Shown here one piece after another: positions 1,619-46,595 of a DNA stretch of 46,979 bases (position 1 is the stretch's first letter; each line of letters opens with the position of its first letter). The stretch covers positions 1 through 46,979 of the forward strand of contig JABWBH010000034.1 of assembly GCA_013360585.1 (NCBI GenBank). Direction: 5' to 3'. The notes beneath the pieces are model-generated. The model ran no database searches. It was not told the origin of the DNA and saw only the letters and a list, made by a program, of their open reading frames with translations. This DNA comes from Phycisphaerae bacterium (GTDB lineage Bacteria > Planctomycetota > Phycisphaerae > UBA1845). The position numbers and the translations under genes are program-made.

Positions 1619-4600
1619 TCAAGCGGATCCATCCTCCTCCTGATATTCGACGCGCGAGCGATCGCCGCTGCGCGACTCGCCCGTCCCCGTCGCCGCCTGC
1701 CAGACCGCGCCCAGCCGCCGCACCGGAACGTCCTCGGGAAGGCACACGTTGAACTTCAGCAGGCTCGTTTCGCCTTTCGCGAGGATCTTCGGCATGCGGC
1801 CGAGGTTCTCGACCTGCGTCGGCGTCAGCGCGCCGTTCGGCGCGGACAACTCAACGACCAGAGCGCGCGCCGAATTCGTCACGATCCGCACCGCGGGAAC
1901 GCGTGCCGACTCCCGCCGAAGCACCACCGCCCCGCGTTTCCGCCAGTCCACGTTCAGCGCCCGATCCAGCTTCTGAAACTGCCCGATCAGCCACAACAGT
2001 GTGTCCGGCTTCCACTTCGCCGGCGTGTTGCGCGACAGGCCCAACTGGCGCAGATGCCGCTGACGCGGATCCGCCGGTTCGTCGTGCCGTGCGGCCCGCG
2101 CCGGGACGCCCCCCCCGTTTTGATCGGAGGCGCTCGCGCCGCCGACGGCCGCGCCCGCCGCGGAAAGATAAGCCGTCGCCGCCTCACGAAGAAACGTCTT
2201 CCAGGTCCGCTTGTCAATGTCGCGCATGTCGCAGGGGAGGATGCGCACGTGCTCCCAGCCGGCCTGCGCTTTGCGGATGTTGACCCGCGGCCAGCGCCCG
2301 TAGATCGGAAGGTCGGTCCGCTCGTCAAGCGTTTTCAAGCCGAGGCGGCGATTCAGCTCGACTTCGCGGAACGTCCCGTCCGGCACGCGCAGGTTGACGT
2401 CAACCAGATCCTGCCCCCCGGTGAGGAGGTGACAGAACCACGTCACCTCCTTCCGCGGCGAGCGGATCTCGATCCGCGCCCGGTCGTTCCAGTCCGACGG
2501 CGCAAACCCCTCGACCTCCTCGATCGCACCCACGATCCACTCTATGACGCTCGGATCCCAATGCACTTTCTTTTGCGAGGCCGCGATCCGGTCCTTCAGG
2601 TGCCACTTCCGCCCGTCCGTCTGCCACGGAGCGTGCGCGGTCTCCTGCACGCGGACGGCTTTGCGCAGCTCGGACTCGGCGAGCTTCTGTTTCGCCTCGT
2701 CCCAGACCGGACGCGGCGCGCGGGGACCGGCGTCCAGCACCGGCCTCAGCGCCCGCCCGGTGTGCGACGCCTCGCAGGCAGCGACCGTCTCGGGCGGACC
2801 CTCCACGACGATCCGCCCGCCGCCTTCGCCCGCCTCCGGACCCAGGTCGATCACCCAGTCACAGGTCTTGATCACGTCCAGGTTGTGTTCGATGCAGAGG
2901 ATCGTGTTGCCCAGGTCCACGAGGCGGTGCAGGACGTTCAGTAGCTTCTGAATGTCGTCGAAATGCAGCCCGGTCGTCGGCTCGTCAAGCACGTAAACCG
3001 TCTGACCGGTGGAAGGCCGGGCGAGCTCCGTCGCCAGCTTGATCCGCTGCGCCTCGCCGCCCGACAGCGTCGCCGCCGACTGCCCCAGCGGCAGGTAGCT
3101 CAGTCCCACGTCGTCGAGCATCTGAAGCGTCCGCCGAACCTTCGGAACGGACTCGAACAACTCGATCGCCTGCGCCACGGTCATCGTCAGGACGTCCGCG
3201 ATGTTGCGCCCCCGGAACCGCACCTCCAGCGTCTGCGACTGATAACGCGTTCCCCGGCAGTTGTCACACTCCACCCAGACGTCGGGCAGGAAGTGCATCT
3301 CGATGCGCCGCTGCCCCATCCCTTCGCACGTCTCGCAGCGCCCGCCCGACGCATTGAAGCTGAACCGCCCCGGCGTATACCCGCGCACCTTCGCGTCCGG
3401 CAGACGCGCGAACAACTCGCGGATAATGTCGAACACCCCCGTGTACGTCGCCGGCGTGCTTGTCGGCGTCACGCCGATCGGCGACTGATCCACGTTCACC
3501 GCCTTCGCGACCCGATCCAACCCCTCAATCCGGTCATGCGCGCCGACGCCGACCCGCTCCCCGTGCAGCCGCGACGCCAGAGCGTGGTACACGATGTCCG
3601 TGACGAGCGTGCTTTTTCCGCTTCCCGACACTCCCGTCACGCACGTGAACCGCCCCAGCGGAAACGCGACGTCGATCCCCTTGAGGTTGTTCTCCCGCGC
3701 GCCGTGAACCCGGAGCCACTTCAGATCCTTCGCATCGGCGCCGTCAGCGCGCACCGGACGGCGGTTCGTCGGCGCGGGGATCGAGCACGTGTTCGCCAGA
3801 TAACGACCGGTCAAAGAGTCTTCCAGATCGCGCAGCCGCTTCGGCGGGGCGTCGGCGACAATGCGGCCTCCGAGCGCGCCCGCGCCGGGACCGAAGTCCA
3901 GCACCCGGTCCGCCGCGTCGATCACCTCGCGGTCATGCTCGACGACCAGCAAGGTATTGCCCAGGTCGCGCAGCTTGTGCAACGCGCGGATCAACCGGGC
4001 GTTGTCCCGCGGGTGCAGTCCGATCGTCGGCTCGTCCAGCACGTACAACACTCCGGTCAACCCCGTGCCGAGTTGCGACGCCAGCCGGATGCGCTGCGAC
4101 TCGCCGCCCGAAAGCGTCGGCGCCGACCGGTCCAGCGACACGTAATCCAGCCCGACATCCACCAGAAAGCGAAGCCGCGACCGCACCTCGTCCACCAGAT
4201 CGCCCGCCACGCGCTTCTCCCGCGCATTCAGCCGCAGCCCCTCGAACCACGCCAGCGCCTCCGACATTGGCATCGCGCACACCTCGGACAATCGCCGTCC
4301 GCGGAACCGCGCCGCCCTTGCGTCCGGACGAAGGCGACTTCCGGCGCACGCCTCGCACGGCACGTCCACCGCCATCTCGCCCAACCGTTGCCGGTAGACC
4401 CAGTTCGCCAGCGTCGCCCGGTGGATCGCCGGGTAGAACCCGCGCCACCGGATGCGTAAACCGGCGTTCACCTCGATCCACCGGTCGCCGGCGCCGTGCA
4501 GAAACGTCCGGCGATGCCCCTCCTCCAGGTCCGCCCACGCGACCGCCGGATCAAACCCGATCGTCTCCGCCACAGCGCACACCAGACGGTGCAGCATCGA

Positions 4601-7138
4601 CCCGCGCGGGATCCGCCCCCAGCCCGCTACCGCGCCGTCAAGGATCGACCGCCGGGGGTTCACGATGATCGCCGACGGGTTCGCGCCCTTCTGCACGCCC
4701 AGCCCCTCGCAGATCTCACACCACCCGAGCCGGCTGTTGAAGGAGAAATGATGCGGCGTCAGCTCCTCAAAACTCTCGCCGCACTCCTCGCACGCGCGAT
4801 ACTGCGAGAAGCGCAGTTCTCTGGGACGTGGACCGGATCCTTCGTCGCTCCCCGGCGAAATGCTCTCGTCTCGTGGCGACGAAGCGCTCGTCACGAGCAT
4901 CACGCCTTCGCCGCGCGACAGCGCGTGCTCGACGCTCTCCGCGAGGCGCGTGCGCTGAGCGGCACGGATCGTCAGGCGGTCGATCACCAGCTCGACCCGA
5001 TGCGCCCCCCGCGCGTCCACTTCCGGCGCGGCGTCGAGCGGGACGATCCGGCCGTCGAGGCGCACGCGCGCGTAGCCCTGCTTGCGCTCCCGCTCAAGGA
5101 GCTGCGCGTACGTCTCCTGTCCCTCGGGTTCGATCGGGGACAGCAGCGTCACCGCCGCTCCGTCCCCCAGCGCCAGAATCCGCTCGACGATCTGATCCGA
5201 CGTCTGCGTTCCGACCGGCACGTCGCAGTTCGGGCAATATCCCTCCGCCAGCCGCGCCCACAACACGCGCAGGTAGTCATAAATCTCCGTCACCGTCCCC
5301 GCCGTCGAGCGCGGCGAACGCCCCGCGGACTTCTGCTCAATGCAGATCGCCGGGGCGAGACCGTCGATGTGCTCGACGCGCGGCTTCTGCATCTGCCCGA
5401 GAAACTGCCGCGCGTAGGCCGAGAGCGACTCGATGTACCGCCGCTGGCCCTCGACGTAGAGCGTGTCGATCGCGAAGCTCGTCTTCCCGCTGCCCGACGG
5501 CCCGCAGCAGACCGTCATCGCCCGGTGCGGAACGTCGACGTTCACATGCTTCAGATTGTGCTCCGAGGCGCCCCGGACCCGGATCGTGTCGCCGTATTGC
5601 GAACCGCGCATCGCGTGTGCCGAGTGAACATCGCTTGCGATTTTTCCTGCCGCCGCCCGCTTGCGCCGCCGCCCGTCCGAGACCGGCGATGATCCGGTTT
5701 CCGCCGGCATTTCGTTATTCGGACTTCGCAATTCGACGTTCAACGCCCGCCGCAGCGCCTCCCCGGTATGACTCCCCTCGGTCTTCGCCACCTCCTCCGG
5801 CGTGCCTTCCGCAACGACCCTTCCGCCGTCCTCGCCCCCCTCGGGACCGAGATCGATCACCCAGTCCGCCGTCTTGACGACGTCGAGATTGTGCTCGACG
5901 ACGACCACCGTGTTGCCCGCGTCCACGAGACGGTGCAGCACTTCCAGCAGCTTGCGCACGTCCTCGAAATGCAGCCCGGTCGTCGGCTCATCGAGGATGT
6001 AAAGCGTCCGCCCGGTCGCCGCCTTCACCAGCTCCCGGGCCAGCTTGATCCGCTGCGCTTCTCCGCCCGACAATGTCGGCGACGGCTGACCCAGCTTGAC
6101 GTAATCCAGCCCCACGTCGTGAAACGTCTGAAGCATCGCCGCGATCTTCGGCTGGTGCGCGAAATGCTCCAGCGCCTGCTGCACGTCCATGTCCAGCACG
6201 TCCGCGATGCTCCTGCCCTTGTAAAGAACGTGCAGCGTCTCCCGGCTGAAACGCTTCCCCTCGCAAACCGGACACGTCACCCAGACGTCGGCGAGGAAAT
6301 CCATGTCCAGCCGGTTCGACCCGTTCCCCTCGCACGCCTCGCAGCGCCCGCCGCCGCGCTCCCCGGACGCGACATTGAAACTGAACCGGCTCTTCGTGTA
6401 CCCGCGCACCTTCGCATCCGGCAGCGCCGCATAAAGGTCACGGATCAGGTCGAAGAGCTTGATGTACGTGGCGGGGTTGGAGCGCGGCGTGCGTCCGATC
6501 GGGGTCTGGTCGATCGCGATGACTTTGTCGAGGTGCTCGGTTCCGTCGATCCGCCGGCACGCACCGGGCGTCGGGCCCGTCGCACCGTTCAGGTCGCGCA
6601 GCAGCGTCTCGCAGAGCACGTCGTTGACCAGCGAACTCTTGCCCGATCCCGACACGCCCGTCACGCACACGAACCGCCCCAGCGGGAACCCGACCGTGAC
6701 GCCCTTCAGATTGTTCTGCGTCGCCCCGACCACGGTCAGCCAGCCGGGCGAAGGCGGTGCATCCGGACTGATCGCGCCCCCCCGGACATCGGGCTTTCCC
6801 GGGGCGGGTTTTCTCCGGGCGGGCTTCGCAGCAACCCGGCCGGCGGGCTTCGGGGCGACGGGCGCTTCGGCTGCCTTGTCAGCGCTCGGCTCGGCTGCGA
6901 GCTTTGCGGGGACGCGCTTCGTGGCGGCGCGACGGGCGGCGACCTTTCCGGCGGCGGGCTTGCTCGCGGATGTCCCGGCAGCAGTCCTCCCGGCTTCCCG
7001 CTTTCCACCGTCCGAAGTTCGCGCGGTCCTGCCCGCGCGCTGCACCGCCGCGCCGCCCCGCGAAGCCCCGCCGCCCTCCGACGCGGGTTCGGCTTCCTTC
7101 AGGATCTCCGCTTTGTCCGTCTTTCCCCGCCGCCCCAT
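1619..7138 (-). CDS. uvrA: Excinuclease ABC subunit UvrA, three-ATPase-module form
   Basis: DNA-damage recognition ATPase of nucleotide excision repair; with UvrB it scans DNA for lesions in the cytoplasm. I chose ATG 7138, giving about 1839 aa, twice the usual ~950. A Lys/Ala/Arg-rich tail (residues ~1-135) precedes an extra NBD-II-type module: Walker A GVSGSGKSS ~163, paired CxxC zinc motifs ~270-290, signature LSGGEAQRIKLA ~356. A complete UvrA follows: NBD-I with Walker A GPSGSGKTS ~548 and signature ~1008, then NBD-II with Walker A GVSGSGKST ~1171 and signature ~1359. A C-terminal extension of about 380 residues (from ~1460) has no UvrA motifs and includes a Trp-rich, basic section. The frame stays open 59 codons further upstream, but that sequence looks non-coding. 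All three modules keep Walker A and signature motifs, so none looks dead. Confidence 0.96.
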   Translation of the reverse strand: MGRRGKTDKAEILKEAEPASEGGGASRGGAAVQRAGRTARTSDGGKREAGRTAAGTSASKPAAGKVAARRAATKRVPAKLAAEPSADKAAEAPVAPKPAGRVAAKPARRKPAPGKPDVRGGAISPDAPPSPGWLTVVGATQNNLKGVTVGFPLGRFVCVTGVSGSGKSSLVNDVLCETLLRDLNGATGPTPGACRRIDGTEHLDKVIAIDQTPIGRTPRSNPATYIKLFDLIRDLYAALPDAKVRGYTKSRFSFNVASGERGGGRCEACEGNGSNRLDMDFLADVWVTCPVCEGKRFSRETLHVLYKGRSIADVLDMDVQQALEHFAHQPKIAAMLQTFHDVGLDYVKLGQPSPTLSGGEAQRIKLARELVKAATGRTLYILDEPTTGLHFEDVRKLLEVLHRLVDAGNTVVVVEHNLDVVKTADWVIDLGPEGGEDGGRVVAEGTPEEVAKTEGSHTGEALRRALNVELRSPNNEMPAETGSSPVSDGRRRKRAAAGKIASDVHSAHAMRGSQYGDTIRVRGASEHNLKHVNVDVPHRAMTVCCGPSGSGKTSFAIDTLYVEGQRRYIESLSAYARQFLGQMQKPRVEHIDGLAPAICIEQKSAGRSPRSTAGTVTEIYDYLRVLWARLAEGYCPNCDVPVGTQTSDQIVERILALGDGAAVTLLSPIEPEGQETYAQLLERERKQGYARVRLDGRIVPLDAAPEVDARGAHRVELVIDRLTIRAAQRTRLAESVEHALSRGEGVMLVTSASSPRDESISPGSDEGSGPRPRELRFSQYRACEECGESFEELTPHHFSFNSRLGWCEICEGLGVQKGANPSAIIVNPRRSILDGAVAGWGRIPRGSMLHRLVCAVAETIGFDPAVAWADLEEGHRRTFLHGAGDRWIEVNAGLRIRWRGFYPAIHRATLANWVYRQRLGEMAVDVPCEACAGSRLRPDARAARFRGRRLSEVCAMPMSEALAWFEGLRLNAREKRVAGDLVDEVRSRLRFLVDVGLDYVSLDRSAPTLSGGESQRIRLASQLGTGLTGVLYVLDEPTIGLHPRDNARLIRALHKLRDLGNTLLVVEHDREVIDAADRVLDFGPGAGALGGRIVADAPPKRLRDLEDSLTGRYLANTCSIPAPTNRRPVRADGADAKDLKWLRVHGARENNLKGIDVAFPLGRFTCVTGVSGSGKSTLVTDIVYHALASRLHGERVGVGAHDRIEGLDRVAKAVNVDQSPIGVTPTSTPATYTGVFDIIRELFARLPDAKVRGYTPGRFSFNASGGRCETCEGMGQRRIEMHFLPDVWVECDNCRGTRYQSQTLEVRFRGRNIADVLTMTVAQAIELFESVPKVRRTLQMLDDVGLSYLPLGQSAATLSGGEAQRIKLATELARPSTGQTVYVLDEPTTGLHFDDIQKLLNVLHRLVDLGNTILCIEHNLDVIKTCDWVIDLGPEAGEGGGRIVVEGPPETVAACEASHTGRALRPVLDAGPRAPRPVWDEAKQKLAESELRKAVRVQETAHAPWQTDGRKWHLKDRIAASQKKVHWDPSVIEWIVGAIEEVEGFAPSDWNDRARIEIRSPRKEVTWFCHLLTGGQDLVDVNLRVPDGTFREVELNRRLGLKTLDERTDLPIYGRWPRVNIRKAQAGWEHVRILPCDMRDIDKRTWKTFLREAATAYLSAAGAAVGGASASDQNGGGVPARAARHDEPADPRQRHLRQLGLSRNTPAKWKPDTLLWLIGQFQKLDRALNVDWRKRGAVVLRRESARVPAVRIVTNSARALVVELSAPNGALTPTQVENLGRMPKILAKGETSLLKFNVCLPEDVPVRRLGAVWQAATGTGESRSGDRSRVEYQEEDGSA

Positions 7139-37867: not shown

Positions 37868-38512
37868 GCACTCTTCCCCTCACCCGCGCCGCGCGAACCC
37901 TTCTTTCTCGCGCCCGAACGTCCGCGCGTTTCCCGACACACCAGCATACGCCCCCGCGCCGCGGTCAACCACCGCACGCGCGCCGACGCCGAAATCCCCG
38001 ACATCCGCTGGTCTCCGTAATGCCGCCGAAAAGACGGTGGCGATGAGGGTATTCCGCTTTCGCCGCATTGGGTCGCCTTCCGGACCGAGGCTCCCGCAAG
38101 CGTCCGGTTCAGGCGCGCAGGCGGATCTCGAACCTCCCGCCGGGACTCGAGGTTATCAAGTTCGCGGTCCGGGATTTCAGATACCCCGGACCGCCTTCAA
38201 GGACTGCGGTCAGACCGCGTTTACACATACCAAACCTGTGACGGCCATCACGTTGAAGGGTTTGCAACTGAAAACGGACGTATCACGCGGATCGCGGGCA
38301 ACAACCACCGCGACGTGTTTCCGTTGATTCATCATTGCGGAAGGATCCTCCGGGGTCGCCCCTGATCTGCTCCGCCACGCAGGCGCCTTTCCCCAGGGGG
38401 AGCTCCCTGGCAAGGGCAGCGGGGCCTGCGATGCGGACCTCCACGAGAACGCCTGATTCGGTAAAAGGATAGCCAAGCAGGGACGGAGGCGCCTCAGCTT
38501 ACGGATGAGCGC
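37868..38512. other. Intergenic region with repeat copy A and a hairpin cluster
   Basis: Between the amidohydrolase start and the riboswitch promoter there is no convincing gene. It contains repeat copy A (37922-37988) and several strong inverted repeats: AACCTC/GAGGTT around 38131-38154, GCGGTCCGGG/CCCGGACCGC (38164-38173 and 38185-38194), GCGGT/ACCGC (38206-38218), and a nested GCAGGC/GCCTGC with CCAGGG/CCCTGG inside (38379-38429). Short open frames here lack codon bias. Confidence 0.6.
37922..37988. repeat. Intergenic repeat, copy A
   Basis: 67 bases matching 40871-40937 with 5 mismatches and no gaps; bases 37942-37979 are identical over 38 nt. The unit holds a short hairpin (GCGGT/ACCGC with CAACC loop, 37961-37975). 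It lies upstream of the amidohydrolase pair. Confidence 0.85.
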
Positions 38513-38540
38513 TTGACTAAGCGGAATCGCAACCTATGAT
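38513..38540 (+). promoter_or_regulatory. Promoter of the c-di-AMP riboswitch-kimA unit
   Basis: TTGACT (38513-38518), 16-base spacer, TATGAT (38535-38540); each hexamer matches consensus at five of six positions. Transcription would begin near 38547, exactly at the 5' end of the aptamer. Confidence 0.8.
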
Positions 38541-38544
38541 TCCG

Positions 38545-38670
38545 GCGATAAACGCTGAATCTCGCGTGGAGCGGGAGCGGGGGAACCACTTTTCTGGGGC
38601 GAATCGCCGCAAGGCGTAGGGCAACTCTTTCAGCCCAAGCCCGTCAGCTAACCTCGTAAGCGTTGAAAGA
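38545..38670 (+). ncRNA. ydaO-yuaA type c-di-AMP riboswitch
   Basis: Conserved elements occur in the right order. The P1 arms AACGCT (38551-38556) and AGCGTT (38659-38664) pair. Between them lie the GCGGGGGAACC-type segment (38577-38587), GGGGCGAATC (38596-38605) and the hallmark CCCGTCAGCTAACCTCGTAA (38640-38659). Known ydaO riboswitches bind cyclic di-AMP and turn genes off, notably potassium importers. A hairpin follows at once (AAGAGAG/CTCTCTT, 38667-38673 and 38701-38707), 30 bases before the start codon, and may be the expression platform; it lacks a U-run, so translational control is possible. Confidence 0.92.
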
Positions 38671-38736
38671 GAGACCCTGCCGGATCTCGCCGGAGGCCGA
38701 CTCTCTTGTCGAGTGAGGTTCTCCGGAGCATTGATC

Positions 38737-40749
38737 ATGAGCGGCCCGGCGTTGGCGTCGGACGGTTCGTCGCAATCCCCTTCTCAGGAAAAACAGACTT
38801 GGTTTAAGCGAGGCAAACACCTCGTGCTGGGTGCTCCGCGCGACCTTCGCGACCGGCAGGTCTTTCATCGTCTATCGATTGTCGCGTTCCTGGCGTGGGT
38901 CGGACTCGGAGCGGACGGCCTTTCCTCATCCGCCTACGGTCCGGAAGAGGCGTTCCGCACCCTGGGCGAGCACACGTATCTGGCGATCGCCCTGGCGCTG
39001 GTGACGGCGCTGACGGTCGTGGTGATTTCGATCGCCTACAGCGGCGTCATCGAGGAGTTCCCGCAGGGCGGCGGCGGATACATGGTCGCCACGAAACTGC
39101 TCGGCAGCAGCGCCGGGGTCGTCTCCGGCTGTGCTTTGCTGGTGGACTATGTTCTAACCATCACCATCTCGATCGCCGCGGCGGGGGACGCGCTGTTCAG
39201 CTTTCTGCCGATGGAATGGCGCTCGATCAAGCTGCCCGCGGAAGTTCTCACGCTCGCCGCGCTCACGGTGCTGAATCTGCGGGGCGTGCGCGAGTCCGTC
39301 ATGGTCCTGACGCCGTTGTTCCTCTTGTTCGTGCTCACGCATGCGGTGCTGATTTTCGTGGGCATCGGCCTCAAATCGCCGCAGTTTCCCGACATGCTTC
39401 GCGAGGCGTCCACCGATTTCTCCCGCGGACTTTCAACGCTGGGATGGGGCGGAATTCTGCTGCTGTTCCTGCACGCCTACTCTCTCGGCGGCGGAACCTA
39501 CACGGGGATCGAGGCGGTCTCCAACGGTCTGAGCATCATGCGCGAGCCGCGCGTGCAGACCGGCAAGCGCACGATGGTGTACATGGCCGCCTCGCTGGCG
39601 ATGACGGCGGGCGGGTTGCTCTTCAGCTACCTGCTCTGGGACGTGAGCTTCGTGGAGGGCAAGACCCTCAACGCCACTCTGCTGGAACGGTTCGTCGAGG
39701 TCGTACCGCTCGGGTACACGTTCGTCATCCTCACCCTGCTGGCGGAAGGGGCGATCCTGATCGTGGCCGCCCAGGCGGGGTTCACGGACGGTCCGCGCGT
39801 GTTGTCGAACATGGCGCTGGATTCCTGGGTACCGCGGCGCTTCGCGTCGCTGTCCGACCGGCTGACGGCGCAGAATGGCATCCTGATGATGGGACTGGCG
39901 TCGCTGGGGGCGATGGTCTACACCCAAGGCGACGTCCGCCACATCGTCGTCATGTACAGCATCAACGTGTTCGTCACGTTCTCGATGACGGAACTGTCGA
40001 TGGTCCGCCTGTGGTGGGGCCGGCGCAGCCACGGACCGCACTGGAAAAAGCGCATCAGCATCCATGTTGTGGGGCTGTTCATGTGCGTCACGATTCTCGG
40101 GGTGACGATTATCGAGAAGTTCGGGTACGGAGGATGGGTCACCCTGCTGATCACCGGCGGGTTGATCGCCCTCTGTTTCTGGATCCGCCGCCACTACCGT
40201 ACGATCAACCAGCGGCTGTCGACGCTCTTCGCCGGGCTGATCGAGACGCCGACCGTTCCGCGCAGCACCCCGGCCACGCTCGATCCGAGCCAGCCCACGG
40301 CCGGTGTGCTCGTCGGCGGATACAGCGGGCTGGGCATTCACACGACCATGACCGCGTTGAAGAACTTCCCCTCCCAGTTCAAGAACGTGGTGTTCATCTC
40401 CATCAGCGTCGTGGATTCCGCCGCGTACCGCGGGGAGGAAGGGATCGAGGAGCAGCAGCGCCGCACCGAGCGCGACCTCCAGCGCTACGTGGATTTCGTC
40501 CAGGCCCACGGCATCCCCGCAACCGCCCGCGGTTCGACGGCCACCGACGTCATCTCCGAACTGGAAAAAATCTGCAACCAGGTGGCCAAGGAGTTCCCAC
40601 GGATCACTTTCTTTGCGGGTCAACTCGTGTTTCAGCGCGAACGTTGGTACCAGCCGCTCCTGCACAACCAGACCGCCTTCGCCATCCAGAAGCGGCTGCA
40701 CTGGGCGGGCTTGACGATGGTAATCCTGCCGACACGCGTTCCGGCGTAA
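38737..40749 (+). CDS. kimA: KimA-like (YdaO family) APC-superfamily potassium transporter
   Basis: 670 aa. ATG 38737 has CGGAG at eight to nine bases; GTG 38713 is in frame but less likely. The N-terminus is soluble; about twelve hydrophobic helices follow from ~57 to ~490. Family signatures resemble Bacillus subtilis KimA: GADGLSSSAYGPEE (~70-83), EFPQGGGGYMVATKLLGSSA (~115-135), VDYVLTITISI, and VLNLRGVRESVMV. After the membrane part a cytosolic domain of about 150 residues begins at TAGVLVGGYSGLGIHTTMTA, as in KimA. The c-di-AMP riboswitch in front supports potassium import over amino acid transport, though the function is inferred from homology and control. Convergent with phaR. Confidence 0.9.
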   Translation: MSGPALASDGSSQSPSQEKQTWFKRGKHLVLGAPRDLRDRQVFHRLSIVAFLAWVGLGADGLSSSAYGPEEAFRTLGEHTYLAIALALVTALTVVVISIAYSGVIEEFPQGGGGYMVATKLLGSSAGVVSGCALLVDYVLTITISIAAAGDALFSFLPMEWRSIKLPAEVLTLAALTVLNLRGVRESVMVLTPLFLLFVLTHAVLIFVGIGLKSPQFPDMLREASTDFSRGLSTLGWGGILLLFLHAYSLGGGTYTGIEAVSNGLSIMREPRVQTGKRTMVYMAASLAMTAGGLLFSYLLWDVSFVEGKTLNATLLERFVEVVPLGYTFVILTLLAEGAILIVAAQAGFTDGPRVLSNMALDSWVPRRFASLSDRLTAQNGILMMGLASLGAMVYTQGDVRHIVVMYSINVFVTFSMTELSMVRLWWGRRSHGPHWKKRISIHVVGLFMCVTILGVTIIEKFGYGGWVTLLITGGLIALCFWIRRHYRTINQRLSTLFAGLIETPTVPRSTPATLDPSQPTAGVLVGGYSGLGIHTTMTALKNFPSQFKNVVFISISVVDSAAYRGEEGIEEQQRRTERDLQRYVDFVQAHGIPATARGSTATDVISELEKICNQVAKEFPRITFFAGQLVFQRERWYQPLLHNQTAFAIQKRLHWAGLTMVILPTRVPA

Positions 40750-41228: not shown

Positions 41229-41837
41229 TCATCCCCGTCCCTGTTGCGGGCGTGGGTCTGAAGGCGGCTCGGGGCGGATCGCTTCGAGGCGTCGGGCGAG
41301 TTCGGCGAGTTGGCGTCGCAGATCCTCGACCTCGGCGGCGGAGTCTGGCGGCGCCGGTTCGGAGGCGTCCGTGTCCGCGTCGGTCCGCCCGTTCTGAACC
41401 GTGTCCGGTGCTTTCGGGGCGAAGGAGCGCATCATCGCCTGGGCCCACTCGATCGGGCTGATCATCTCGCCGGACATCGCCCGGTTCATCACGTCGTCGA
41501 GCTGCCGACGGGATTGCACCATCGGATGCGTCAGCGGGGCGAGGAAACCCTCCATCGCGGTGCGGAACGCCGAAGGCTTCGAGCGCACCAGGGCGTGAAG
41601 AATCCACGTCGGGAAGAGATGCAGCTTCGGGGGATCCTTCTCCAGCAGGATCTGGATCAGGATGACATTCGTGATGTCCTCCCCGGTGCGCGTATCCGTC
41701 ACCTCGAGCGTCTTGCCCTCCAGCAACCCCTCATGAAGCTCCTGAAGCGTGACATGCCGGCTTTGCGTTGTGTCGTAGAACCGCCGGTTGGGGTACTTCT
41801 TGACCTGCATGATCTGGCGGCCCTTCGGCTCGCTCAT
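41229..41837 (-). CDS. phaR: PHA synthesis regulator PhaR
   Basis: DNA-binding repressor that senses PHA granules and controls phasin expression. 202 aa. The N-terminal PHB/PHA accumulation regulator domain is clear: VKKYPNRRFYDTTQSRHVTL (~12-31), then TRTGEDITNVILIQILLE (~50-67). The middle region (~75-135) is typical granule-binding sequence, helical and Met/Arg-rich; the last ~60 residues are acidic with a short coiled coil (EVEDLRRQLAELARRLEAI). Start ATG 41837 has AAAGGGGGG upstream. It is divergent from the phasin gene, so it can act on the shared AT-rich region 41838-42093, as PhaR does in proteobacteria. Confidence 0.95.
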   Translation of the reverse strand: MSEPKGRQIMQVKKYPNRRFYDTTQSRHVTLQELHEGLLEGKTLEVTDTRTGEDITNVILIQILLEKDPPKLHLFPTWILHALVRSKPSAFRTAMEGFLAPLTHPMVQSRRQLDDVMNRAMSGEMISPIEWAQAMMRSFAPKAPDTVQNGRTDADTDASEPAPPDSAAEVEDLRRQLAELARRLEAIRPEPPSDPRPQQGRG

Positions 41838-41850
41838 CGCGCCCCCCTTT

Positions 41851-41979
41851 GTGCTGGTTTCGCACTAAAGAAAGGATAGGACAAGGGGGGAGAAGTGTCA
41901 AAGGGTGGCGAGTTTCTGTTTTATAATATCATGTAATTTATATGTTTACGATAAAAATCGCTCTTTTTTTGCAATTGCA
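41851..41979. promoter_or_regulatory. Candidate PhaR operator sites
   Basis: TGC-rich inverted repeats lie in the phaR-phasin intergenic region: GTGC...GCAC (41851-41854, 41862-41865) and the perfect palindrome TGCAATTGCA (41970-41979), which ends nine bases before the phasin -35. Known PhaR sites in Paracoccus and Ralstonia contain TGC/GCA-type inverted motifs; assignment here is inference. Confidence 0.45.
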
Positions 41980-41988
41980 CGAAAACGC

Positions 41989-42017
41989 TTGACGCGAACG
42001 CAAAAATGTGGTAGACT
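41989..42017 (+). promoter_or_regulatory. Strong sigma70-type promoter for the phasin gene
   Basis: TTGACG (41989-41994), 17-base spacer, TAGACT (42012-42017), in an AT-rich stretch that is exceptional for this genome. Transcription would start around 42024, giving a leader of about 70 nt. Confidence 0.8.
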
Positions 42018-42093
42018 ACTATCGGCAACTGACAAGAGCCTCCGGACAGGTCGCGGGGGCGGACGGAAACCCCAGGCAAGGGAGATGCAAGAC

Positions 42094-42567
42094 ATGACTC
42101 AAACACCTGATTTTATGACGGACATGATGGACCAGGCGCGACAGACGGTCGAGGCCGGGGTTCAGGCTTCGACGCGGATGTGGGACGCGACGACCCGCTT
42201 TGCGACCCTGACGCCCGTGTTCAGCCCGCGCTTTGAGGACATCAAGACGGGCAACGAGCGGATGACCCGGAACTTCGCGCCGGTGATGCGCGAGAGCTTC
42301 GACCTCTTCGCCGGGGCGATGAACGCGCAGGTCCGCTCCAACCTGGATTTCTTCAAGCGGACGATCGACAAGACCCACAGCGGCAAAGACGTGAACTGGT
42401 CTGCGGCGGCGCAGGAGACGATGCGCGACGCCTTCGGAACGATGCGCAGCGGGTTCGACGTGGTCGCTGAGACGGGCACGAAGATGATGAAGAGCTGGGC
42501 GTCGCTGTTCGGCGAGTGCTGCGGCGAGAAGTGCGACGCGAAAGCGGCGCCGAAGCCCGTCAAGTAG
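42094..42567 (+). CDS. Phasin, PHA granule-associated protein
   Basis: 157 aa; coats PHA granules. I chose ATG 42094 (AAGGGAG ends nine bases earlier) over ATG 42085, which abuts the ribosome site, and over the frame's earlier starts in AT-rich non-coding DNA. The sequence is helical and amphipathic without membrane helices: TPDFMTDMMDQARQTVEAGV, FAPVMRESFDLFAGAMNAQV, MRDAFGTMRSGFDVVAETG. Met, Phe, Gln and Ala are abundant as in phasins. The C-terminus ends in Cys/Lys-rich CCGEKCDAKAAPKPVK, unusual for the family. Position between phaR and phaA supports the call. Confidence 0.85.
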   Translation: MTQTPDFMTDMMDQARQTVEAGVQASTRMWDATTRFATLTPVFSPRFEDIKTGNERMTRNFAPVMRESFDLFAGAMNAQVRSNLDFFKRTIDKTHSGKDVNWSAAAQETMRDAFGTMRSGFDVVAETGTKMMKSWASLFGECCGEKCDAKAAPKPVK

Positions 42568-42619
42568 AACCTGAGATTCCCTACACCAGGTCGCGGTTCG
42601 ACCGGAAACAGGCTCGGGA

Positions 42620-42625
42620 TATGAT
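42620..42625 (+). promoter_or_regulatory. -10 element and overlapping palindrome upstream of phaA
   Basis: TATGAT (42620-42625) sits inside the near-palindrome CGGGATATGATCCCG (42615-42629). A possible -35 (TTCGAC) lies 17 bases upstream but matches poorly. A regulator bound to the palindrome would block the -10. Confidence 0.45.
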
Positions 42626-42743
42626 CCCGCGCCTGATCCGGTCGGCCGCGACCTGTCCCCCTTTCGGATGGGCGCGAGGTGCCGCGGCGGGTGGAAGCGA
42701 CGTCGGCCTGAAAGTGCGCGAGAGTGAAGAAGGGGCAATCGGC

Positions 42744-43925
42744 ATGTTGAAGAACGTGTACGTGGCGGGCGGCGTGCGAACGCCGTTCGGGGCGTTCAAC
42801 GGGGCGCTGGCGTCGATGCGGGCGCCGGAGCTGGGGAGCCTGGTCATCCGACACGCGCTGGAGCGCAGCGGGGTCGACGGAAAAAGCGTCGACCACGTGT
42901 ACTTCGGCAACGTGATCCAGGCGGGTCAGGGGCAGAACGTCGCCCGGCAGGCGGCGCTGGGCGCGGGACTGAACACCGGCATCGGCGCGGTCACGATCAA
43001 CAAGGTCTGCGGGTCGAGCCTGCGGGCGGTCATCATGGCGTCGCAGACGATCCAGTGCGGCGACGCGAACGTGATCGTCGCCGGCGGCTGCGAGAGCATG
43101 ACCAACGCGCCCTATCTTCTCACGAAGGCCCGCTCGGGCTACCGGATGGGCCACGGCGAGCTTATCGACAGCATGATCCACGACGGGATCTGGGACGTTT
43201 ACAAGAACAAGCACATGGGCTCATGCGGAGACATGTGTGCCGCGAAATACAACTTCTCCCGCCAGGAACAGGACGCCTACGCCGTCGCCAGCTACACCCG
43301 CGCCGCCCAGGCGTGGCAGAGCGGGTTTTACAAAGAGGCCGTCATTCCCGTCGAGATCAAGTCCCGCAAGGGCGTCGAGACGGTGTCGATGGACGAGGAC
43401 GTCGCCAAGTTCGACGCCGCGAAGATGAGTACGCTCAAACCGGCGTTTTCGCCGGACGGGACGATCACGGCGGGCAACGCCTCGAACATCAATGACGGCG
43501 CGGCGGCGATGGTCGTGTACGGCGAGGAAGCGAAGACGTCGATGGGTCTCAAGCCCGTCGCCCGCATTCTCGGCTACGCCAACTACGCGACCGAGCCGGA
43601 CTGGTTCACCGTCGCCCCGGTTCACGCGATCAAGCGTTTGTGCGAGAAGCTGTCGCTGAAGACCAGCCAGGTGGACCTTTTCGAGATCAACGAGGCGTTC
43701 GCGGTGGTTCCGATGGTGGCGATGCGCGAGCTGGGGCTCGATCACGCGAAGGTGAACGCCTACGGCGGCGCGGTGTCGATCGGTCATCCGATCGGCGCGT
43801 CGGGCGCGCGGATTCTGAACACCTTGACGCGTGGTCTGCGGTGGACAAAGGGGCGCATCGGCATCGCCTGTCTGTGCATCGGCGGCGGCGAGGCGGACGC
43901 GGTGGCGGTGGAGCTGTGCGGGTGA
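42744..43925 (+). CDS. phaA: Acetyl-CoA C-acetyltransferase (PHA beta-ketothiolase)
   Basis: Condenses two acetyl-CoA to acetoacetyl-CoA, first step of PHB synthesis. 393 aa from ATG 42744 (AAGGGG upstream), the exact usual length. Catalytic residues occupy family positions: nucleophile C89 in NKVCGSSLRA, H348 in GHPIGASGAR, C378 in CLCIGGGEA. Other landmarks: GGVRTPFGAFNGAL at the start, AGGCESMTNAPYL (~118-130), EINEAFAV (~315-322). The extra upstream frame overlaps the phasin 3' end and is not coding. Followed at 28 bases by phaE. Confidence 0.96.
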   Translation: MLKNVYVAGGVRTPFGAFNGALASMRAPELGSLVIRHALERSGVDGKSVDHVYFGNVIQAGQGQNVARQAALGAGLNTGIGAVTINKVCGSSLRAVIMASQTIQCGDANVIVAGGCESMTNAPYLLTKARSGYRMGHGELIDSMIHDGIWDVYKNKHMGSCGDMCAAKYNFSRQEQDAYAVASYTRAAQAWQSGFYKEAVIPVEIKSRKGVETVSMDEDVAKFDAAKMSTLKPAFSPDGTITAGNASNINDGAAAMVVYGEEAKTSMGLKPVARILGYANYATEPDWFTVAPVHAIKRLCEKLSLKTSQVDLFEINEAFAVVPMVAMRELGLDHAKVNAYGGAVSIGHPIGASGARILNTLTRGLRWTKGRIGIACLCIGGGEADAVAVELCG

Positions 43926-43953
43926 GCAAGCTGCGGACGATGGAGCGAAGCAC

Positions 43954-44424
43954 ATGAACGAAAGCAACCCTTTCTCCGGCGCCGACGCCTGGATGAAATT
44001 CTGGACGGACGCGATGAGCAAGATGCCGGGCGCTCCCGGGGCGCCGGCGAGCGCTCCGCCTCCTGCGCCGGCGCTCTCGCCTTCCGAGATGCTGTCGAAG
44101 ATGCAGCAGACGTTCCTGGAGGCGTGGACGAAGGGGATGGATCAGTACATGCGCTCCGAGGCGTTTCTTCAGATGATGAAGAAATCGATGGAGAACGCCC
44201 TGGCGATGCGTCAGCAGCTCGATGAATTCCTGAGAAAAACGCTGCACGGCGCGCAGGCGCCCAGCCGCGCGGACACGTCGGACCTCATGCAGTTCCTGCA
44301 CACCTTCGAGGACCGCGTGCTGGATCAGCTCGCCGCGCTGTCGAAGCGCGTAGACGACCTCGAAGGCGGCGCGGGCGGCGGCGGCAGGACCGGCGGGAAG
44401 ACGAAACAGGGAGGCGGACGATGA
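43954..44424 (+). CDS. phaE: Class III PHA synthase subunit PhaE-like protein
   Basis: 156 aa. A Pro/Ala linker at ~25-40 is followed by helical Met-rich sequence: SEMLSKMQQTFLEAWTKG, MDQYMRSEAFLQMMKKSMEN, LMQFLHTFEDRVLDQLAALS. It ends with a coiled-coil-like heptad and a Gly/Arg/Lys tail. It is shorter than the ~300-360 aa PhaE of Allochromatium but has the same features (segments resembling phasins) and overlaps phaC by 4 bases (ATGA), the standard phaE-phaC order. ATG 43954 has GGAGCGAAG upstream. PhaE is needed for full activity of class III PhaC. Confidence 0.8.
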   Translation: MNESNPFSGADAWMKFWTDAMSKMPGAPGAPASAPPPAPALSPSEMLSKMQQTFLEAWTKGMDQYMRSEAFLQMMKKSMENALAMRQQLDEFLRKTLHGAQAPSRADTSDLMQFLHTFEDRVLDQLAALSKRVDDLEGGAGGGGRTGGKTKQGGGR

Positions 44425-45515
44425 GCGCGATGGACACCCTGACGCAGATGTGGAGCGCGGCGCTGTCGGACACGCAGAAGCAGTGGCAGGAGGCGCTGAC
44501 GAAGGCGGCGAGCTGGCCGAAAGTCATCGACGCCGCGCAGCGCGTCCGCGTGGGCATCACGCCGGGCGAACCGGTCTACAAGGAGGACAAGCTCCGCCTC
44601 ATTCATTACAACCACCCCGCCGCGCCGCGTTATGAGACGCCGCTGCTCTTCGTCTTCGCTCTGGTCAACCGGCCTTACATTCTCGACCTGAAGGAAGGCA
44701 AGAGCGTCGTTCAGCATTTCGTCCGCGGCGGGTTCGACACGTACAACGTGGACTGGGGCGTGCCTTCGGACGGCGACCGGTTCCTCGACCTGGAGGACTA
44801 CATCGAGCGCTACCTGCATCACTGCGTCGAGCGGATCTGCGAGCGCAACGGCGTCGAGAAGATCAACCTCGTCGGCTACTGCATGGGCGGGTCGATGAGC
44901 GCGATGTACGCCGCGCTGCACCCGGAGCGCGTGCGCAACCTGATCCTGATGGCCGCGCCGGTGGACTGGTCGTCGAGCGAGCATCCCCTGGCGCTGTGGA
45001 CGAAGGAGGAGTACTTCGACGTCGACAAGATGATCGAAGTCTTCGGCAACGCGCCGGCGGAGTGGCTGCAGTGGTCGTTCCTGCTGCTGCGCCCGGTGGA
45101 CAATCTCGTCGGCAAATACATCAACTTCTACAGGAACATGGAGGACGAGAAGTTCCTCGAGGACTTCTTCGCGATGGAGACGTGGCTGAACGACAACATC
45201 CCCGTGGCGGGCGAGATGTTCCGCCAGTTCGTCAAGCATTGCATGCAGCGCAATGAGCTGATCCAGGGGAAGCTCGAGATCGGCGGACGGCGCGTGGACC
45301 TGCGGAACATCACCTGTCCGGTGCTGAACCTGACGGCGAGCGCTGATCATCTCGTGCCGTGCGGACAGAGCCTGCCCTTCAACGCGGCGGTGGGTTCGAC
45401 GGACAAGGAGGCGATCACCTTCCCGGCGGGACACATCGGGCTGGCGGTGGGGTCGAAGGCGCATCGGGATCTGTGGCCGAAAGCGGTGGAGTGGTTGGGG
45501 AAGAGAAGTCGGTAA
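44421..45515 (+). CDS. phaC: Class III polyhydroxyalkanoate synthase PhaC
   Basis: Polymerises (R)-3-hydroxyacyl-CoA to PHA at the granule surface. 364 aa, the class III size (class I/II are ~560-590). Alpha/beta-hydrolase fold with lipase-like box GYCMGG, nucleophile C154. The triad is completed by D309 (TASADHLVP) and H338 (PAGHIGLAVG). TYNVDWGVPSDGDR near residue 110 and RNLILMAAPVDW near 178 are standard PhaC segments. Start ATG overlaps phaE. No lipase-type Ser at the elbow. Downstream SDR begins 43 bases later. Confidence 0.97.
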   Translation: MSAMDTLTQMWSAALSDTQKQWQEALTKAASWPKVIDAAQRVRVGITPGEPVYKEDKLRLIHYNHPAAPRYETPLLFVFALVNRPYILDLKEGKSVVQHFVRGGFDTYNVDWGVPSDGDRFLDLEDYIERYLHHCVERICERNGVEKINLVGYCMGGSMSAMYAALHPERVRNLILMAAPVDWSSSEHPLALWTKEEYFDVDKMIEVFGNAPAEWLQWSFLLLRPVDNLVGKYINFYRNMEDEKFLEDFFAMETWLNDNIPVAGEMFRQFVKHCMQRNELIQGKLEIGGRRVDLRNITCPVLNLTASADHLVPCGQSLPFNAAVGSTDKEAITFPAGHIGLAVGSKAHRDLWPKAVEWLGKRSR

Positions 45516-45558
45516 CGGGCGGCTGTGGACGACAGGCCGACAGCCGGGAGCGATACCC

Positions 45559-46380
45559 ATGAAACTCGAAGGAAAAGTCGCCGTGGTGACGGGCGCCGCC
45601 AGCGGCATCGGACAGGCGACGTGCCTGAAGCTGGCGGAAGAGGGCGTGGCGGCGATCGGGGCGGTGGACCGCAGCGAGGGTGTCCGGGAGTTCGCCCGGT
45701 CGCTCAATGACCGGTTCGGACGGGAGCTTCTGATGCCGTACTCGGGCGACGTGGTTGACGGCGCGTTCCGCGAGCGCGTCTTCGCGGACATCGAGACGAA
45801 ATTCGACGCGGTGCATATCTGCGTGCCGGCCGCGGGCATCACCCGCGACCGCCTCGCCGTCAAGCTCACCAACGGCAGCGAACCGCTGCGCCTCGATCTT
45901 TACAGCGAGGACGAGTTCCGGCGGGTGATGGACATCAACCTCATCGCGCCGATCTACTGGGCGCTGCGCACCGTCGGCTCGGTCGCCCTCTCGCGGAAGC
46001 GGGCGCGACTCGGACCGTGGGTTCCGGATGAGCGCGTCCAGGGCGGAATCGTGCTGATCGGCTCGGTCTCAAAAGCCGGAAACCGCGGACAGATCTCCTA
46101 CGCCACCGCCAAGGCCGGACTCGAAGGCGCACAGGCGACGCTGGCGATCGAGGCGATCTTCTACGGCGTCCGCTGCGCCATCATTCACCCGGGATTCACC
46201 GACACGCCGATGGTCCGATCGCTCGGCGACGACCTCATCCGCGAGCAGATTCTCCCGAACACCCAGTTGAAGCGCCTCATCCGCCCCGAGGAGATCGCCG
46301 AGGCCATCGTCTTCATGCTCCGGAATTCGTCGGTCAGCGGCGCTCTCTGGGCCGACGCGGGATGGCACCCAAGGGGTTAA
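45559..46380 (+). CDS. SDR-family reductase, probable acetoacetyl-CoA reductase (PhaB/FabG-like)
   Basis: NADPH-dependent reductase, 273 aa. The Rossmann motif is TGAASGIG (residues 11-18). Catalytic residues: S169 in LIGSVSKAGNRG, Y181 and K185 in YATAK. IIHPGFTDTPMV follows as in SDRs that accept acyl-CoA/ACP. Its place as the last gene after phaA, phaE and phaC points to reduction of acetoacetyl-CoA to (R)-3-hydroxybutyryl-CoA. It is longer than typical PhaB (~246 aa) by inserts around residues 95-115 (AVKLTNGSEPLRLDLYSED) and 135-155 (LSRKRARLGPWVPDERVQGG), so specificity is uncertain. ATG 45559 has a weak ribosome site (GGGAG fourteen bases upstream). Confidence 0.9.
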   Translation: MKLEGKVAVVTGAASGIGQATCLKLAEEGVAAIGAVDRSEGVREFARSLNDRFGRELLMPYSGDVVDGAFRERVFADIETKFDAVHICVPAAGITRDRLAVKLTNGSEPLRLDLYSEDEFRRVMDINLIAPIYWALRTVGSVALSRKRARLGPWVPDERVQGGIVLIGSVSKAGNRGQISYATAKAGLEGAQATLAIEAIFYGVRCAIIHPGFTDTPMVRSLGDDLIREQILPNTQLKRLIRPEEIAEAIVFMLRNSSVSGALWADAGWHPRG

Positions 46381-46505: not shown

Positions 46506-46532
46506 CCCAGCCCTGGCGGGCTGGGCTGTTTT
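46506..46532 (+). terminator. Terminator-like hairpin after the pha operon
   Basis: CCCAGCCC (46506-46513), loop TGGC, GGGCTGGG (46518-46525), then CTGTTTT. It could end transcription of phaA-E-C-SDR, or be part of the REP-like segment. Confidence 0.4.
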
Positions 46533-46540
46533 CCAGCGCC

Positions 46541-46595
46541 CCTTCCGGGGCTGAGACTTCCAGACGATCCTTCGGGACTGAGACTTCCGAATCAT
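46541..46595. repeat. Imperfect tandem direct repeat, 28-base period, two copies
   Basis: Copy 1 46541-46568 and copy 2 46569-46595 share CTGAGACTTCC and the CCTTC start; copy 2 lacks one base. Confidence 0.7.

Follow-up and report, generated by a model that had tools for sequence, protein, structure and literature searches.

What controls the potassium transporter gene near the 3' end of a 46,979-nucleotide stretch of DNA from a Phycisphaerae bacterium (assembly GCA_013360585.1, contig JABWBH010000034.1, positions 1 to 46,979; hereafter the window), and where would the controlling signal come from? An earlier note, made from the sequence alone, had read the leader of this gene as a cyclic di-AMP (c-di-AMP) riboswitch controlling a KimA-type transporter. 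Our analysis established the aptamer, the position of the promoter, the identity of the transporter, a diadenylate cyclase (DAC) domain and phosphodiesterase candidates in the same genome, a second aptamer copy before a trkH gene, and covariation of a helix, "pk", that closes on the 3' strand of the aptamer. We consider it likely that the window carries a c-di-AMP riboswitch in the 5' leader of a planctomycete KimA-type K+ importer, and that this riboswitch is an OFF switch that probably acts on translation.

The leader matched the Rfam family RF00379 with a score of 103.7 bits (E 1.1e-23; gathering score 38) over the complete model (positions 1-134), with all consensus pairs kept and no non-standard pairs marked (Table 1). 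The element is almost certainly a c-di-AMP riboswitch for kimA, with ligand binding predicted. Shuffled sequence gives an expectation of 0.1 +/- 0.4 promoter-like sites in the interval 38200-39000; the one site present there ends 2 bases from the aptamer match, and transcription is therefore predicted to start at about 38546-38548, in the unpaired 5' edge of the aptamer and a few bases ahead of the first P1 pair. The earlier note had put the start at the first base of the aptamer; the promoter does adjoin the aptamer, but the predicted start is not exactly base 1. We scored promoter-like pairs from -60 to +12 relative to the aptamer in 18 chosen leaders, which include the second copy of the window genome and a near-identical pair, L006 and L162. 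The best pair reached at least 8/12 in 16 of them (L105 and L146 missed, with 5 and 7), against a mean of 3.9 and a maximum of 7 of 18 leaders in 200 shuffles of the set. The pair ended between -13 and +3 of the aptamer in 17 leaders, or in all 18 with another tie-break, whereas the shuffle control for this placement averaged 7.3 leaders with a maximum of 13. For kimA itself, the open reading frame (ORF) tool chose a GTG at 38713; this start appears less likely than the ATG at 38737, because the latter has a GGAG 8 bases upstream.

The only solved relative of the window transporter in the PDB at E<=0.001 was KimA of B. subtilis (6s3k, 8b70, 8b71), with which it shares a homologous membrane domain (E 1.7e-55). 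We took the roles of individual KimA residues from the residue descriptions in PMC10284832. By alignment, the K+-coordinating residues D36, Y43, T230 and Y377 of KimA correspond to D60, Y67, T256 and Y407 in the window protein, so that four of four are kept; the same sites are kept in 78-79 of 80 KimA relatives, and the exceptions are gapped rows and a single S. R367, H643, N644 and Q645 are the counterparts of the KimA residues that contact c-di-AMP (R337, H579, N580 and Q581), with S582 of the pocket replaced by T in the window. Among the 80 relatives, R occupies the R337-equivalent in eight and Q the Q581-equivalent in three, H or T and E or H, respectively, being commoner. The cytosolic domain is highly diverged from that of B. 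subtilis KimA, its second stretch scoring only 9.9 bits (i-E 1.7). Because the pocket residues R, H, N and Q are present, direct inhibition of the window KimA protein by c-di-AMP is plausible. The closest named relative is that of L006, a Phycisphaerales metagenome-assembled genome, at 84% identity.

The window genome (4.24 Mb, 97% complete) encodes a cyclase domain and phosphodiesterase candidates, that is, predicted enzymes for making and degrading c-di-AMP. A profile search returned a single DAC-domain protein (133.9 bits), whose best solved relative is a diadenylate cyclase (E 4.2e-40) and whose nearest solved proteins are of that type. The phosphodiesterase candidates comprise one PgpH-type protein with HD, seven-transmembrane (7TM) and extracellular domains and, among four DHHA1 matches, two stand-alone DHH/DHHA1 proteins; the other matches are RecJ and one more protein. 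The c-di-AMP signalling that had been predicted for this lineage thus has its candidate enzymes. The ORF adjacent to the cyclase gene (L005, 6076-7092, minus strand) had no Pfam match, and we do not claim a CdaR/YbbR partner.

A second RF00379 copy in the window genome (48.7 bits) has its own promoter-like site and lies ahead of a TrkH-type gene (153.7 bits). Looking for a regulatory partner of TrkH of the TrkA type, we found seven TrkA_N matches; a single short candidate was scanned, in which TrkA_N was not accompanied by TrkA_C, and we therefore do not claim post-translational control of TrkH by c-di-AMP. Across 294 sampled planctomycete genomes, DAC domains occur in 271, KimA relatives in 49 (four just weak partial matches) and RF00379 in 40, the last in 46 copies. 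When ORFs starting within 900 bases downstream were assigned to these copies, 34 of the 46 preceded K+ genes, namely 14 KimA relatives, 18 TrkH relatives (six divergent) and two KUP genes, and of the remaining 12, seven preceded four APC-type permeases (two by Pfam and two by weak BLAST matches to KimA only), two Band_7 genes (one by Pfam and one by eye) and one HAMP gene, and five were left unassigned. The aptamers before SPFH/Band_7 and HAMP-domain genes (L086, L128 and L110; L128 by eye) may have targets other than potassium. In the class Phycisphaerae, 75 of 397 genomes had an RF00379 match, 74 of them over the cut-off. At 29 further loci of the class, mostly the best-scoring, the downstream genes were nine KimA, seven TrkH, six KdpA, three weak KimA-like permeases and four others; the aptamers ahead of KdpA are at L151, L157 and L163 by Pfam and at L153, L165 and L166 by eye.

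We also collected kimA relatives from 84,980 species and used the best 80 of 95 loci. An RF00379 match was present at 27 of the 80 and lay within 700 bases upstream of kimA at 26, mostly in Deltaproteobacteria and Verrucomicrobia; at L061 and L069 the gap between aptamer and kimA is 624 and 642 bases, with an intervening ORF possible, and L038 and L060, also among the 80, have less than 400 bases of upstream sequence. At L076 (Desulfobacteraceae), kimA is flanked on both sides by c-di-AMP aptamers (3618-3759 and 5975-6113). The earlier note had described the class as known mainly from Gram-positive bacteria, a description that is dated in view of these loci and of the Cyanobacteria, Proteobacteria, Verrucomicrobia and Fusobacteria that appear in the list of phyla in PMC6488665.

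How the aptamer might be coupled to kimA is suggested by the strands that follow it. A helix between the aptamer and its 3' tail (CUCUUU with AAAGAG), which falls outside Rfam's nested structure line, is important for the RF00379 class. We examined covariation in an alignment of 12 chosen leaders, from which L098 was omitted for its long a-d insert, L101, L102, L105 and L092 because the layout is absent, L162 for its near-identity to L006, and L100, L108, L131, L132, L133, L134 and L136 for having more distant proteins. The pk pairing covaries: 96.8% of cells are paired, two-sided changes occur in three of eight pairs, and the covariation score was reached by 1 of 500 shuffles and by none of the slid controls, all of which were lower. 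Of the 500 shuffles, 65 reached as many two-sided pairs and 249 as many pair types; these shuffle figures come from related sequences and hence are not probabilities.

Downstream of the aptamer, strand d of the window is a complement of strand a, with the decoy GGAGG of strand c between them, and the two p values given for a:d in Table 1 are from two runs against dinucleotide shuffles. A downstream complement of strand a was found at p<0.05 in 6 of 16 planctomycete kimA leaders in a first test and in 8 of 23 distinct ones in a second, where the combined p of 1.9e-5 is optimistic through relatedness and one of the eight, L131, has a truncated aptamer match that misplaces strand a. The first test omitted seven distant kimA leaders and ten of 25 trkH leaders and the second included both sets; of the seven, one more leader (L131) reached p<0.05, and of the ten, no leader did. 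The distance from strand a down to its complement is 23-28 bases in 11 of the 16 leaders first tested and in the Zixibacterium leader L007 (p 0.23); in the other five of the 16 the complement sits elsewhere. No complement at p<0.05 was found in 25 planctomycete trkH leaders, 11 deltaproteobacterial and other kimA leaders or 13 Verrucomicrobial kimA leaders, and we therefore do not extend the toggle to trkH, deltaproteobacterial or Verrucomicrobial leaders. For strand b paired with the Shine-Dalgarno (SD) region, p was roughly 0.05 or below in 9 of 17 kimA leaders (L105 has no region to test), and five trkH leaders gave no signal (combined p 0.38). We computed the cost of opening the SD region in nine leaders, five of kimA and four of trkH, and removal of strand a raised this cost in six of the nine, in the window from 3.4 to 6.4 kcal/mol. 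The complementarity partly supports a toggle that goes beyond the pairing within the aptamer.

Several observations weigh against an OFF switch that works through this toggle. A significant complement of strand a was lacking in 15 of the 23 planctomycete kimA leaders, and covariation of the a:d helix in the 12 leaders did not go beyond controls, its score being reached by 197 of 500 shuffles. In the window itself, strand b paired with the SD region no better than in shuffles (p 0.37); the window's best fold pairs strand c with that region, and we rejected the b pairing as the window's own sequestering hairpin. Removal of strand a lowered the SD-opening cost in three of the nine leaders (L007, L098 and L091) and had an effect near nil in L087 (0.3 kcal/mol), such that among the five kimA leaders folded there was clear agreement just in the window and L006. 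Even with strand a free, the computed fold of the window tail covers the SD (3.4 kcal/mol to open), and reaching the ON state would therefore require the RNA to fold as it is transcribed. As to the ligand, the window-genome DAC reads D-L-G at the usual DGA motif, and as to the read-out, Rho-dependent termination at the window leader is possible.

The departure from DGA bears on an alternative in which the aptamer is intact but is starved of its ligand, or serves another dinucleotide, the sole DAC being without the canonical motif. We compared 30 loci with Phycisphaerae CdaA-like DACs (L001 and L171-L199), two of which were not read by the pattern. All 28 readable DACs have D[M/L][G/A], compared with DGA in 17 and DGG in one of 18 chosen CdaA-like DACs of other planctomycetes, and on these counts the altered motif looks class-wide in Phycisphaerae. 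The RHR motif is kept in 28 of 28, and in M. tuberculosis DacA replacement of the DGA glycine by alanine is described as retaining activity and loss of RHR as abolishing it (PMC3328451). Because DacA tolerates alanine in place of this glycine, activity of the DLG-type enzyme is plausible by analogy, though the precedent covers alanine and not methionine or leucine. Six riboswitch-bearing genomes among those read carry a D[M/L][G/A] DAC as their sole DAC, and the window aptamer is near consensus; some Phycisphaerae have a second, different type of DAC, and both examples read (L218 and L219) have DGA. On balance, we regard a starved or re-purposed aptamer as improbable. We give still less credence to the transporter being an amino-acid permease that merely resembles KimA. 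The window protein does draw permease scores, 22.5 bits with Pfam AA_permease (cut-off 24.6) and 29.3 bits with NCBIfam TIGR00909 (cut-off 556.8), but both are under the curated cut-offs, and with KimA as the sole solved relative at the threshold used and the K+-coordinating residues kept here and in the relatives, we rejected a permease identity. The earlier note had named the absence of a covariance match, the absence of a DAC protein in the genome and a permease-like transporter as grounds for abandoning its reading, and we observed none of the three.

A more serious alternative keeps the aptamer and its target and places control at transcription termination, through an unrecognised intrinsic hairpin or through Rho. 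Six of 11 deltaproteobacterial and other kimA leaders with the same aptamer end in clear terminators, all six of them deltaproteobacterial (L015, L019, L023, L039, L076 and L080), and the kdp riboswitch of B. thuringiensis is reported to terminate transcription (PMC6488665). In the window leader, folding gives hairpins between the aptamer and the kimA start, in line with the downstream hairpin that had been noted before; two scan methods found no intrinsic terminator there, and we rejected a terminator of the B. subtilis kind for this leader. The scan was positive in two of 24 planctomycete kimA leaders. The terminator-like site of L162 is inside the coding region; that of L100 is a hairpin that overlaps the 3' end of the aptamer and may be real. 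Against termination, the strand complementarity found in part of the planctomycete kimA leaders aims at the SD region. Control by termination is possible for the window, but we hold it to be the less likely course, and we lean toward a riboswitch that acts on translation.

For the window riboswitch, OFF is highly likely to be the direction of control. The steps we propose are as follows. High internal K+ would raise c-di-AMP, which would bind the aptamer and stabilise the helix that takes up the 3' strand of the aptamer. The captured strand could then no longer oppose the downstream hairpin, the ribosome-binding-site region would be covered, and no KimA would be made. At low c-di-AMP, the 3' strand would pair downstream, the decoy of the ribosome-binding site would take the anti-Shine-Dalgarno strand, and translation could start. 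A wider proposal, which we put forward tentatively and think doubtful as a whole, is that many Phycisphaerae kimA leaders and the Zixibacterium leader share this platform, in which strand a would pair by turns with its partner in the aptamer and with a mimic of that partner further downstream, and a decoy ribosome-binding site would take part; that the kimA and trkH riboswitches, and the kdpA riboswitches of relatives, would control K+ uptake through c-di-AMP made by the D[M/L][G/A] cyclase; and that c-di-AMP would inhibit the KimA protein as well.

Counterparts of this arrangement are described elsewhere. In B. subtilis, kimA and ktrAB form a riboswitch-controlled pair (PMC7288161); like the two elements of the window genome, the kimA (ydaO) and ktrAB riboswitches belong to RF00379 and target a KimA-type transporter and a Ktr/Trk-type K+ channel. 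The B. subtilis kimA riboswitch is described as using a transcription terminator (PMC9960051), whereas none was found in the window leader, from a planctomycete host. The nlpC c-di-AMP riboswitch of C. glutamicum is described as having no canonical terminator, translational control being deduced there from reporters, and a CTCC strand is proposed to toggle between two GGAG partners, one in the ribosome-binding site and another about 20 bases upstream (PMC9960051), the logic that we propose for the decoy of the window. That riboswitch is from an actinobacterium, has a cell-wall peptidase as its target and has reporter support; the window riboswitch concerns K+ uptake, and its proposed translational control has the support of sequence and folding. 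Because PMC9960051 proposes such a decoy and a 2024 review counts ydaO as one of the classes in which the ribosome-binding site is hidden (PMC10907184), the idea of a translational decoy is not new. The kdpFABC riboswitch of B. thuringiensis also places a c-di-AMP aptamer ahead of K+ uptake genes but, unlike the riboswitch that we propose for the window kimA, is transcriptional and has Kdp as its target; kdp c-di-AMP riboswitches are said in the same article to seem restricted to Bacillales (PMC6488665), in contrast to the Phycisphaerae loci with an aptamer before KdpA.

Table 1. Positions in the window of the riboswitch, its predicted switching strands and the gene downstream.
Feature	Position	Strand	Basis
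Sigma-70-like promoter, TTGACT-16-TATGAT	38513..38540	+	10/12; sole promoter-like site within 38200-39000
c-di-AMP (ydaO/yuaA) riboswitch aptamer, RF00379	38543..38678	+	covariance match, 103.7 bits, full length
Aptamer strand CTCTTTCA, pk helix with 38664-38671	38625..38632	+	covariation in 12 leaders
Putative switching strand a, TGAAAGAGAG, alternative partners 38625-38632 or 38701-38707	38664..38673	+	complementarity, covariation
Strand b, CCGGA, predicted to pair with decoy c or the true ribosome-binding-site region	38680..38684	+	folding; window b:SD p 0.37
Strand c, CCGGAGG, Shine-Dalgarno-like decoy, also predicted to pair with CTCCGG 38721-38726	38690..38696	+	sequence, folding
Strand d, CTCTCTT, complement of a (putative anti-sequestering helix)	38701..38707	+	window folding energy (dG) -9.6; p 0.007 and 0.017
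Shine-Dalgarno core GGAG	38725..38728	+	sequence; 8 bases 5' of ATG
kimA, KimA-type K+ transporter, 670 aa from ATG 38737	38737..40749	+	PDB match, aligned K+ residues

Two other features of the window are recorded here. Positions 41229-46380 hold a polyhydroxyalkanoate (PHA) gene cluster with a polyhydroxybutyrate (PHB)/PHA accumulation regulator, a thiolase, a PhaC-like synthase and an SDR reductase. An Acido-Lenti-1 RNA match lies at 46506-46552 (41.2 bits; cut-off 37), and a further copy of this RNA is present in the Hydrogenedentes locus L070.

The sensor class and its role in potassium control are already known; they are extended here by the planctomycete lineage and by a wiring that is likely translational. 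Planctomycetota is missing from the phyla that PMC6488665 lists for predicted c-di-AMP riboswitches of K+ transporters. Our literature search found no paper on planctomycete c-di-AMP riboswitches; the Rfam species list was outside that search, and we do not claim that these elements are unreported. The findings place a whole c-di-AMP potassium circuit, with its cyclase domain, phosphodiesterase candidates, two riboswitches and K+ importers, in the outer-membrane phylum Planctomycetota. They suggest that very distant bacteria share the kimA and Ktr/Trk logic of B. subtilis with the read-out swapped between termination and translation, and they offer a second candidate, after C. glutamicum, for translational control by c-di-AMP, together with a comparative set of leaders.

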